A DNA stretch of 44,987 nt, from contig CALULJ010000017.1 of assembly GCA_944321445.1 (NCBI GenBank), positions 1-44,987 of the forward strand, in the 5' to 3' direction. A program made the translations under genes and the position numbers. Positions 37,372 through 41,266 of the stretch are shown here, one piece after another. The first letter of the stretch is position 1; every line of letters starts with the position of its first letter. The notes beneath the pieces are model-generated. The model did not search any database, had not been told where the DNA came from, and saw only the letters and a list, made by a program, of their open reading frames with translations. The stretch comes from an uncultured Collinsella sp. GTDB taxonomy: Bacteria; Actinomycetota; Coriobacteriia; Coriobacteriales; Coriobacteriaceae.

Positions 37372-37454
37372 GAGAACGGTTTTATATGGAATCGTTCTCA
37401 TAACAAACGATATACGAGAAAGGGGAGCTATATTAATATGGAATCGATCTCATA
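37372..37454 (-). promoter_or_regulatory. scrA promoter with LacI-family operators
   Basis: The minus strand has a -10 TATAAA (37386-37381) with a weak -35 about 17 nt upstream. A 19-bp sequence, ATATGGAATCGTTCTCATA (37384-37402), recurs with one change at 37436-37454; both centre on CG as LacI-family sites do. A third related half-palindrome, GAGAACGGTTTT, lies at 37372-37383. The two main sites are 52 bp apart, about five helical turns, which would suit looping. The first overlaps the promoter spacer, so ScrR probably represses here. Confidence 0.65.
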
Positions 37455-37518: not shown

Positions 37519-38502
37519 CTACCGCGTCGAGGCGCGCTTGACGATCTCGTACCCCATCTTGATCTCGCGCGGGACGGTGTCGGTGCCGGTCATAAGGCCC
37601 AAAAGCATTTTGGCGGCCTCGGAGCCCGAGGTCTTGTAATGGTGGTGCACCGTTGTGAGCCGCGGGGTCACAATTTGCGATAGCTCGCCGTCGCCCACGC
37701 CGGTAACCTGGACGTCTTCGGGCACGCGAATGCCGTGTTCGCGCAGGTAGGTGAGGGCACCGTAGGCGATCGAGTCGGTCGCGCACACCAGGGCGTCGGT
37801 CTCGGGGCGTGCACCCATAATGGCCTCGGCGCACGAGTAGCCCGAGTCGACGGTGAATTCGGCTACGGCCTGCGCATCTTCGGCCACATCGACGCCGCGT
37901 GCGGCACAGCTGTCCAAAAATCCGCGATGGCGCAGTTCGCCGGCCGAGACGTCCTCTTCCAAAACGCCTATGTAGCCGGGGGCTTTGGAGGTTTCCAAAA
38001 CAAGGTCGGCAATCTCGCGCGTGGCGGCGTAGTCATCTTGGTGCACGCAGGGCCATCCGGCCAAAAGCTGGTCGAGGATGACAACGGGCACGCGACATTC
38101 CTTTAACGCGGTTTGGTGTTCCGGCGTGAATACCGTGCCCATCAAAATGATGCCGTCGACCTGGCGGCGCTCGGTGAACAGGCGCAAAAAGCCAATCTCG
38201 CGCGACGCGTCGTTGTCGGTGTTGGCGAGCAAGATCTGGTAGCCCGCATCGTTGAGAACCCGTGTGATGCCGGCGACCATGCGCGAGATCGATGCGGAGT
38301 TGATTTTAGGGATGATGACCCCCACAACGTCCGTTTTGCCGGTACGCAGCGTTTTCGCCTGGCGAGAGGGGACATATCCGGTCTGATCGATCACGCGTTT
38401 GATGGCCGCGCGCTTCTCCTGCGATACATAGCCGTCGTTCAGGTAGCGTGACACCGTGGCGCGCGACACGCCTGCCATCTGCGCGATCGTGTTGATGTCC
38501 AT
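37519..38502 (-). CDS. scrR: LacI-family regulator of the sucrose genes
   Basis: 327 residues. The N-terminal helix-turn-helix and hinge (MDINTIAQMAGVSRATVSRYLNDGYVSQEKRAAI at 1-34, hinge near 50) are followed by a periplasmic-binding-like sugar domain (VVGVIIPKINSASISRMVAG, then VDGIILMG, then DALVCATDSIAYGAL). By position it controls scrA-scrB, 200 bp downstream on the same strand, through the operators at 37372-37454. GAGAGGAG precedes the ATG. Its own promoter abuts the 72-bp palindrome. A 7-bp stem, CCAACCG/CGGTTGG (37466-37488), lies after the stop but lacks a T-tract. Confidence 0.92.
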   Translation of the reverse strand: MDINTIAQMAGVSRATVSRYLNDGYVSQEKRAAIKRVIDQTGYVPSRQAKTLRTGKTDVVGVIIPKINSASISRMVAGITRVLNDAGYQILLANTDNDASREIGFLRLFTERRQVDGIILMGTVFTPEHQTALKECRVPVVILDQLLAGWPCVHQDDYAATREIADLVLETSKAPGYIGVLEEDVSAGELRHRGFLDSCAARGVDVAEDAQAVAEFTVDSGYSCAEAIMGARPETDALVCATDSIAYGALTYLREHGIRVPEDVQVTGVGDGELSQIVTPRLTTVHHHYKTSGSEAAKMLLGLMTGTDTVPREIKMGYEIVKRASTR

Positions 38503-38527
38503 GCCGCTCCTCTCGTTGTCTGACTGG

Positions 38528-38554
38528 ATTGTACCTCAGCGCTCCCGCGTGAAA
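38528..38554 (-). promoter_or_regulatory. scrR promoter sharing the palindrome
   Basis: TACAAT (38533-38528, minus strand) lies 15 nt from TTTCAC (38554-38549) inside the left arm of the palindrome. The arrangement mirrors exactly the promoter on the other side (38597-38623). The -35 match is poor. Confidence 0.45.
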
Positions 38555-38611
38555 TCACCCCAGGGGTTTTGCACATGTGCAAAACCCCTGGGGTGATTTC
38601 ACGCGGGAGCG
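38540..38611. repeat. Perfect 72-bp palindrome
   Basis: Bases 38540-38575 are the exact reverse complement of 38576-38611, 36 bp per arm with no spacer. The centre reads TTTTGCACATGTGCAAAA, and each arm contains CCCCAGGGG. No T-tract follows. It occupies the divergent region between scrR and the UvrA-like gene and can form a cruciform or, if transcribed, a 36-bp hairpin. Confidence 0.97.
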
Positions 38612-38623
38612 TTTCCCTATACT
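38597..38623 (+). promoter_or_regulatory. Promoter of the UvrA-like gene
   Basis: TATACT (38618-38623) lies 15 nt after TTTCAC (38597-38602), which is within the right arm of the palindrome. The -10 is good, the -35 poor. The ATG is 26 nt further on. Confidence 0.5.
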
Positions 38624-38648
38624 TGAGGGTAGCACGAAAGGGGAGCCC

Positions 38649-41147
38649 ATGAAGCGTACGAGCTACGAGCAGCCAACGCATATCCAGGTGCGCGGCGCTC
38701 GCGTCCACAACCTCAAGAACATCGATGTCGATATCCCACTCGGTCAGCTTGTGGGCATCGCCGGCGTGTCCGGCTCGGGCAAGAGCTCGCTGGCGCTCGG
38801 CACGCTTTACGCGGAAGGGTCGCGCCGCTATCTGGACGCGCTGTCCACCTACACGCGCCGGCGCATCGCGCAGACCGGCCGCGCTACGGTGGACGAGGTC
38901 CTGCATGTGCCGGCAGCCCTGGCGTTGCGTCAGCGTCCCGGCATCCCCGGCGTGCATTCCACATTCGGCACCTCGACCGAGCTACTCAACTACCTGCGCC
39001 TGCTGTTCTCGCGCCTGGGCAGCCATGTGTGCCCCAACGGCCATCGCGTGCCGCCGTCCATGGATGTTGCCCTCGGGCAGATGACGACCTGCCCCGTCTG
39101 CGGCGTACAATTCATGGGGCCGGGCGCGGAGGATCTCGCCTTTAACAGCGGAGGCGCCTGCCCCACCTGCGGCGGAACGGGCATCGTGCGCACGGTGGAC
39201 GAGGCGACGCTCGTGCCCGACGAGTCCATCTCCATCGATGACGGCGCCGTTTTGCCCTGGGGTTCGCTTATGTGGGATCTCATGAAGCAGGTGTGCGGCG
39301 CCATGGGCGTGCGCACCAACGTGCCGTTCAACCAGCTTACGCCCGAAGAGCGCGACATCGTGTTCCACGGGCCGGCGGAAAAGAAGCACATCCTGTACCA
39401 ATCGAAGAAGGGCGACGACTTCGCAGAGCTCGATTTCACGTACTTTAACGCGGTATATACGGTGGAAAACGCGCTTTCCAAGGCGAAGGACGAAAAGGGC
39501 CTGGCGCGCGTGTCCAAGTTCCTGCGGGAGGACGTGTGTCCGGATTGTCACGGCACGCGTCTGTCCGAACGCGCCCGTGGGCCGATGGTCGATGGCATGA
39601 CGCTTGCCGACGCGACGTCCATGACGCTCGACGAGCTTGCAGCTTGGGTGCCCACGGTGCCCGGCCTGATGCCTTCTGACATGCAGGCTATGGCGCAGGC
39701 CATTTGCGCGGAGATGGTCGAGCCCATGGAGCGCCTGCAGCAGCTGGGTTTGGGCTACCTCTCGCTCGACCGTGCGAGCTCGACGCTTTCCACCGGCGAG
39801 CGCCAGCGCGTGCAGTTGGCGCGCGCGGTGCGCAACCGGACCTGTGGTGTGCTCTATGTGCTGGACGAGCCGTCGATCGGGCTGCACCCTTCCAACGTGG
39901 AGGGCCTGCTCGGCGTGGTGGACGACCTGCTTGCCGATGGCAACTCGGTGGTACTCGTGGACCATGACGTGCGCGTGCTTCGCCAGGCTGACCATCTGAT
40001 TGAGATTGGTCCCGGCTCGGGTGCGGACGGCGGGCGCGTCATCGCGCAAGGCACGGTGGAAGAGGTAGAGGCTGCGCCCGAAACGCGCATCGGGCCGTTC
40101 CTGTCGGGCACACGCTCTGTGCGCGTGCGCGAGCGCGCGGCGACGGAATCGGTGTTCGAGCAGGGCGCAATTCACTTGGATACGGACGCAATCCACACGG
40201 TGAAGCCGTTATCCGTCGATATCCCGCGCGGCAGGCTCACCGCGGTGACCGGAGTGTCGGGTTCGGGCAAGACCACCCTCGTGCTGGAGAGCCTCATCCC
40301 CGGACTGCGCGCCGCTATTGCGGGCGAGCAGCTGCCGGCGCACGTGCGCGCCGTGGATGCCGACGGAATCTTGCGCGCGAACCTTATCGACGCCACGCCC
40401 ATCGGCGCCAACGTGCGTTCCACGGTGGGAACGTATTCGGGCGTGCTCGACGACCTGCGCCGGGCGTATGCCAAACTGCCCGAGGCACGTGAGGCCGGCC
40501 TCAAGGCGGGCGCGTTCTCGTACAACACCGGATCGCTGCGGTGCTCCACGTGCGACGGCACCGGGCAGATATCGCTCGACGTGCAGTTTCTGCCCGACGT
40601 CGACATTCCCTGCCCCGAGTGCGGCGGTTCGCGCTATGCCCGCGCGGCGTACGGCATCAAGCTCGCAGGCGATATCTCGTTGCCTGAGCTGCTGTCCTAC
40701 ACGGTCGACCAGGCGGCGGAGGTGCTGGCCGAGACGAATCTGCGTACCGCCAAGGCAAAACTGCAGGTTCTGCACGATTTGGGCCTAGGCTACCTTACGC
40801 TCGGCGAGGCCACACCGGCGCTTTCGGGCGGCGAGGCGCAGCGCCTGAAGCTGGCGAGCGAGCTCACGCGCAAACAGGGCGATGCGCTGTTTGTGTTCGA
40901 CGAGCCCACGATCGGCCTGCATCCGCTCGACGTCGAAGTGCTGCTGCGCGTGCTGCAGCGGCTGATCGACAACGGCGCCACCGTCGTGGTAATTGAGCAC
41001 GACCTCGACATGATCGCGAATGCCGACTACGTGATCGACATGGGCCCGGGTGGCGGCGAGGGTGGCGGCCGCATCGTTTGCGCCGGCACGCCCGACCAAG
41101 TCGCTGCCTGCGCAGACTCCATCACCGGCCGCTACATGGGAAAATAG
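38649..41147 (+). CDS. UvrA-like ABC ATPase lacking the UvrB-binding domain
   Basis: 832 residues against about 940 for canonical UvrA. Two ABC halves are complete: Walker A GVSGSGKSS (near 40) with signature STGERQRVQLARA, and GVSGSGKTT with signature LSGGEAQRLKLASEL. Zinc cysteine pairs CPTCGGTG, CPDCHG, CSTCDGTG and CPECGG are retained. After SRLGSHVCPNGH the sequence passes almost directly to CPVCGVQFMG, so the domain that contacts UvrB (about 130 residues in UvrA) is missing. Such UvrA2-type proteins are associated with drug tolerance or auxiliary repair, not core excision repair. ATG 38649 follows AAAGGGGAG; an upstream in-frame start at 38577 would lie in the palindrome and is rejected. 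Confidence 0.9.
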   Translation: MKRTSYEQPTHIQVRGARVHNLKNIDVDIPLGQLVGIAGVSGSGKSSLALGTLYAEGSRRYLDALSTYTRRRIAQTGRATVDEVLHVPAALALRQRPGIPGVHSTFGTSTELLNYLRLLFSRLGSHVCPNGHRVPPSMDVALGQMTTCPVCGVQFMGPGAEDLAFNSGGACPTCGGTGIVRTVDEATLVPDESISIDDGAVLPWGSLMWDLMKQVCGAMGVRTNVPFNQLTPEERDIVFHGPAEKKHILYQSKKGDDFAELDFTYFNAVYTVENALSKAKDEKGLARVSKFLREDVCPDCHGTRLSERARGPMVDGMTLADATSMTLDELAAWVPTVPGLMPSDMQAMAQAICAEMVEPMERLQQLGLGYLSLDRASSTLSTGERQRVQLARAVRNRTCGVLYVLDEPSIGLHPSNVEGLLGVVDDLLADGNSVVLVDHDVRVLRQADHLIEIGPGSGADGGRVIAQGTVEEVEAAPETRIGPFLSGTRSVRVRERAATESVFEQGAIHLDTDAIHTVKPLSVDIPRGRLTAVTGVSGSGKTTLVLESLIPGLRAAIAGEQLPAHVRAVDADGILRANLIDATPIGANVRSTVGTYSGVLDDLRRAYAKLPEAREAGLKAGAFSYNTGSLRCSTCDGTGQISLDVQFLPDVDIPCPECGGSRYARAAYGIKLAGDISLPELLSYTVDQAAEVLAETNLRTAKAKLQVLHDLGLGYLTLGEATPALSGGEAQRLKLASELTRKQGDALFVFDEPTIGLHPLDVEVLLRVLQRLIDNGATVVVIEHDLDMIANADYVIDMGPGGGEGGGRIVCAGTPDQVAACADSITGRYMGK

Positions 41148-41171
41148 GGACAGGCACTTTTTTCCCAGATG

Positions 41172-41266
41172 GGGGGTCTGCAATTTCTACTTGCCGTTTC
41201 GTTCGCTAACTCGGTTGATTCGAGCAAGTTAGTGAACGAAACGGCAAGTAGAAATCAACGACCCCC
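41172..41266. repeat. 95-bp inverted-repeat element
   Basis: GGGGGTC (41172-41178) pairs with GACCCCC (41260-41266). After four unpaired bases per side, a 29-bp arm (41183-41211) pairs with 41227-41255 with a single mismatch over a 15-nt loop. No T-tract follows. A GGGACAGGCAC motif and a T6 run precede it (41149-41163). It occupies the start of the 455-bp region before nrdJ; the stretch 41267-41435 holds nothing I can recognise. Confidence 0.9.

Follow-up and report, generated by a model that had tools for sequence, protein, structure and literature searches.

The perfect 72-bp palindrome that lies between two divergent genes of an uncultured Collinsella sp. is highly likely to be a non-autonomous mobile hairpin, formed by a REPIN/TIR-type inverted pair of repeat units of the RAYT/TIRYT kind. 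Unless another locus is named, coordinates refer to the window, the 44,987-nt stretch of DNA that was analysed. In our model, units of this family would be moved in trans by their cognate RAYT/TIRYT-class enzyme, a Y1 (HUH) transposase that would act on hairpins in single-stranded DNA by analogy with the TnpA-REP enzymes of E. coli, Stenotrophomonas, and Marinomonas. One such element would have landed between the two divergent promoters, replacing upstream DNA while sparing both -10 boxes. With no cognate transposase in the source genome, this copy would now be an orphan.

Palindrome anatomy and the repeat family

The palindrome occupies positions 38540-38611. As the preliminary description had proposed, its arms (38540-38575 and 38576-38611) are each 36 nt long and 100% complementary, with a spacer of 0 nt and 0 mismatches. 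The chance expectation for such a palindrome in the whole window was ~1e-17, and block-shuffled sequence of the source genome (~145 kb) contained zero hairpins, even at a score of 12. Folded as a DNA hairpin, the palindrome gave -49.4 kcal/mol (z = -14.7) with a 4-nt loop. Comparison with Rfam returned only sub-threshold microRNA-precursor matches, none of which reached a family's gathering score.

Each arm consists of a 27-bp unit (GTGAAATCA-CCCCAGGGG-TTTTGCACA) and a 9-bp outer stem, and the unit is itself nearly self-complementary, centred on CCCCAGGGG. The left unit lies on the plus strand (38549-38575) and the right unit, its exact inverse, on the minus strand (38576-38602), giving a REPIN-like inverted pair of CCCCWGGGG-family units. 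The left outer stem, CGCTCCCGC (38540-38548, plus strand), is private to this copy relative to other members of the family. The right outer stem, GCGGGAGCG (38603-38611, plus strand), is its exact inverse.

To delineate the distribution of the family, its core, AAATNRCCCCWGGGGT, was searched across 65 genomes of the same taxonomic family, with the reversed pattern as a control. The core was present in 8 of the 65 genomes and amplified in three: Collinsella tanakaei ET10 (G040; 59 matches at 37 places), G059 (97 matches), and G061 (134 matches), where a perfectly palindromic unit contributes 2 to the count. The reversed pattern gave 0 matches in every genome. Many copies in the amplified genomes were inverted pairs with cores ~27-66 bp apart. 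Counting against a mobile hairpin, the source genome (G000) holds a single copy, with no second member of the family, and the 27-mer of the window departs at several positions from the unit that prevails in the amplified genomes. Searches of phages, plasmids, and viral contigs found no copies. Separately, an uncultured Coriobacteriaceae bacterium carries a CCCCWGGGG-family core match within a UvrA-like coding region (L154, 4663-4678).

Y1 transposases and known repeat systems

The three amplified genomes each encode a Y1_Tnp (IS200-like) protein of ~250-264 aa (C13 in G040, C29 in G059, and C53 in G061), and several CCCCWGGGG-family units flank each of these genes on both sides. Among the genomes examined, only these three have a Y1_Tnp gene flanked by the window-family unit. 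The remaining Y1 genes examined in the genus and family had different palindromes at their flanks, for example GGGAAAATAGGGACAG for C5 of the source genome and GGTTGGGGACGTGTTCC for both C13b of G040 and C3 of G041 (C. tanakaei ET30), or none that we recognised. In a tree of 33 Y1 transposases from the genus and family, C13, C29, and C53 grouped with two orthologues bearing CCCTAGGGA-variant flanks in one clade (support 100/98). The probability that all three flanked genes would fall in this 5-member clade of 33 was ~0.002. Within the clade, the proteins with CCCCWGGGG flanks did not form a clade of their own. The preliminary description had listed a mobile palindrome among several options, and the amplified relatives, the flanked Y1 genes, and the transposase clade support that option well.

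The source genome encodes two Y1 transposases, C5 and C2, which share only 44% and 35% identity with the cognate enzyme, belong to other clades of the tree, and go with other palindromes. A C-terminal helix-turn-helix (HTH) domain counts among the features of TIRYT transposases; a search for one gave sub-threshold HTH-like matches for C5 but nothing for the cognate enzyme. In ET10, the cognate transposase gene is followed by a gene that has a counterpart on contig 22 of the source genome, where it is preceded by a different palindrome and by no transposase. As the cognate gene is absent from this draft (97% complete), the window copy is an orphan, and it is very probably immobile in its present genome.

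Among described systems, TIRtrons (TIRYT) provide the closest comparison. In these, long inverted repeats that lack a GTAG tag lie on either side of a RAYT-like Y1 transposase gene; the repeats, some of them self-complementary, are dispersed as singles, dimers, and clusters at moderate copy numbers and carry a GGGGWSAS motif (PMC3733652). They probably correspond to TnpA-Y1 subclass 2.1 of a later classification (PMC6006769). The window family resembles TIRtrons in its repeat-flanked Y1 genes and in its dispersal as singles, dimers, and clusters, both seen in G040, G059, and G061. In contrast, the window's own genome has no Y1 gene flanked by this unit, only one copy, and no cognate transposase. 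The 59-134 matches also seem to exceed the moderate numbers described for TIRtrons. Moreover, an exact GGGGWSAS is missing from the window family: the window arm (GGGGTGAT) agrees at 7 of 8 positions and the common unit (GGGGTTAT) at 6 of 8, while the repeat of the C5 transposase (GGGGACAG) matches in full.

The classical, GTAG-tagged REPIN/RAYT systems share with the window family two units inverted in one hairpin, one repeat type per transposase, clusters beside the transposase gene, and compensatory spacer changes, the last already described for REPINs (PMC3116915). Similarly, the BIMEs and REPtrons of E. coli, Stenotrophomonas, and Marinomonas combine palindromic units and inverted pairs with an adjoining TnpA-REP gene. 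The biochemistry of hairpin recognition is known for these systems, in which GTAG takes part in recognition and cleavage to an extent that varies by system (PMC8266576). However, the window family lacks such a tag: no GTAG stands beside either window unit, and the units of relatives start with GTAA, GTCA, GCAA, or GTAG inside the paired stem rather than with an unpaired GTAG foot. In addition, the arms in the window family are perfect and the spacer may be absent. Owing to the missing tag, TIRYT/TIRtron (PMC3733652, PMC6006769) fits better than GTAG-tagged REPINs (PMC3116915, PMC8266576). The literature that we searched described no such systems in Collinsella or Coriobacteria.

Divergent promoters and the corresponding gap in relatives

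On the minus strand, the palindrome is flanked by a gene for a LacI-family regulator (37519-38502; named scrR in the preliminary description), which adjoins genes for a sucrose-type PTS and a sucrose-6-phosphate hydrolase. On the plus strand, it is flanked by a gene for an 832-aa UvrA-like ABC ATPase (38649-41147) that narrowly misses the curated cut-off of TIGR00630, the UvrA model. Operator-like dyads, each with CG at its centre, lie upstream of the PTS gene at 37372-37399 (GAGAACG...CGTTCTC) and ~37430-37450 (TGGAATCGATCTCA), and TGAAATCGATTCCA-like sites are found at the corresponding position in four relatives.

The -10-like box of the LacI-family gene, TACAAT (38528-38533, minus strand; ATTGTA on the plus strand), and that of the UvrA-like gene, TATACT (38618-38623, plus strand), lie where they had been placed previously. 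They are equidistant from the palindrome, as had been noted, although the gap on each side is 6 bp and not 7, with each box starting at the 7th base. The upstream -35 zones are indeed identical. This identity follows from the symmetry of the two arms, and the placement of one palindrome between two boxes accounts for it together with the equal distances. As promoter elements these zones are poor: neither contains a good -35 hexamer, and scans for sigma-70 promoters and terminators across 38400-38800 recognised nothing. Neither the equal spacing nor the identical zones had a parallel among relatives.

The same gap in relatives proved informative. The ATTGTA box on the scrR side was conserved in each of the four Collinsella relatives that share the gene order, palindrome or not, and the TATACT box on the uvrA side in three of the four. 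C. tanakaei An368 (G039) and C. ihumii GD8 (G014) retain the divergent gene pair and the two -10 boxes around a gap that is free of palindromes. By locus, the junction was without a palindrome at L145 and L148, and held a palindrome of another family at L146. The gap of ET10 contains an inverted pair of the GGGGACGTGTTCC family, and the contig of ET30 ends at the junction with part of a GGGGACGTGTTCC-family palindrome upstream of the UvrA-like gene. In An791 (G020), a different gene lies upstream and a 24-bp hairpin is found near TATACT. These junctions indicate that unrelated palindromes have come to occupy the gap on more than one occasion. The public ET30 contig opens with AGATGTGTATAAGAGACAG (L144, 1-19), which we take to be a Nextera transposon end, an untrimmed adapter at a contig end that lies within a hairpin.

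The -10 boxes are separated by 84 bp in the window; the spacers of three relatives measure 160, 58, and 102 bp, and none of these sequences can be aligned with one another. A clean empty site or target duplication is therefore not definable, which also counts against a mobile hairpin.

The preliminary description also offered a bidirectional control element. In such a role, the palindrome would supply both -35 regions or serve as the binding site of a regulator dimer, which might be the neighboring LacI-type protein, and so co-regulate both genes. Its position exactly between the -10 boxes, 6 bp from each and necessarily within both upstream regions, speaks for such an element. Nevertheless, we consider this role very unlikely. 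Divergent genes with both promoters but no palindrome were what the preliminary description had named as refuting it, and An368 and C. ihumii show this state. Both boxes persist in relatives that lack this palindrome sequence, and two relatives have no palindrome in the gap at all, so it is dispensable for the divergent arrangement. An acceptable -35 hexamer is also absent. In the window as in relatives, LacI-type operator-like sites (TGGAATCGATTCCA-like) precede the PTS gene, and a search of 38500-38650 for half-sites of the PTS-side dyad found none. These data suggest that the element is unnecessary for regulation.

Hairpin density was estimated in a 445-kb sample of the source genome that included the window. 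This sample held ~12 hairpins with arms of at least 27 bp and high identity, belonging to at least four sequence families, and a block-shuffled control held no such hairpins. Several of the ~12 match repeats of the genome's own C5 transposase. A second long palindrome in the window (41172-41266; 47-nt arms, 83% complementary) is of another family; related palindromes lie on contigs 1 and 3 of the source genome (L229 and L239). At its 3' end, the UvrA-like gene runs into a single unit (41137-41167) of the GGGAAAATAGGGACAGGCACTTTTTTCCCA family, that of the C5 transposase, from which it takes its final codons and stop (M-G-K-stop).

The abundance of comparable hairpins in other settings bears on two further proposals of the preliminary description. 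A cruciform or supercoiling switch, whose extrusion would toggle both promoters, could draw on the perfect and very stable hairpin with its 4-nt loop. However, cruciforms this large with a GC-rich core extrude slowly, and An368 and C. ihumii manage without any palindrome here. Considering also the many similar hairpins elsewhere in the genome, we regard such a switch as exceedingly improbable. The neighboring DNA-structure-binding ATPase had been thought to add interest, but with around a dozen such hairpins in 445 kb its proximity is probably a coincidence.

Arm identity beyond the unit

The two 27-mers were identical in 13 of 23 inverted pairs (12 of 22 when the window pair is set aside), while 27-mers from different pairs differed at 4.4 positions on average. 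In a draft of 84 contigs, and with hairpins often breaking assemblies, one might suspect that misassembly gave two imperfect arms the look of a perfect pair. This is extremely unlikely here, as copies just as perfect are present in other genomes that were assembled independently and the gap is flanked by the same gene order in four relatives.

In 7 pairs, the match between arms ran 9-14 bp further outward into copy-private sequence, and in several pairs it ran 11-13 bp inward, again into sequence private to the copy. Identity in such private sequence is not what one would predict if a fixed element had been inserted. It could reflect landing in existing hairpins, copying between arms after insertion, or selection for a perfect hairpin. 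One locus of An791 (L008, 1473-1599) holds a 60-bp perfect-arm hairpin that looks like a nesting of two palindrome families, with an CCCCTGTCCCG-type pair placed at the apex of an GGGGACGTAGCC-type palindrome, as landing in an existing hairpin could produce.

We tentatively suggest, as a possibility that we think rather doubtful, that after an element lands in or beside a hairpin one arm is copied onto the other by template switching. A perfect palindrome would then grow outward into its private flanks until selection stopped it, and here selection for the two -10 boxes might have halted growth. If true, arm copying would explain the exact match of the arms in inner and outer parts that are unique to one copy.

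Read as a mobile hairpin, the sequence no longer counts as the striking control element that it seemed to be, and becomes linked to a transposase-repeat system of gut Collinsella-type bacteria. The palindrome is most likely an ordinary mobile element, an orphan of its family, sited between two promoters, and in a sister strain the same two-promoter gap holds a palindrome of a different family. The copies of its family provide material for studying the origin and persistence of long perfect palindromes in bacterial genomes.
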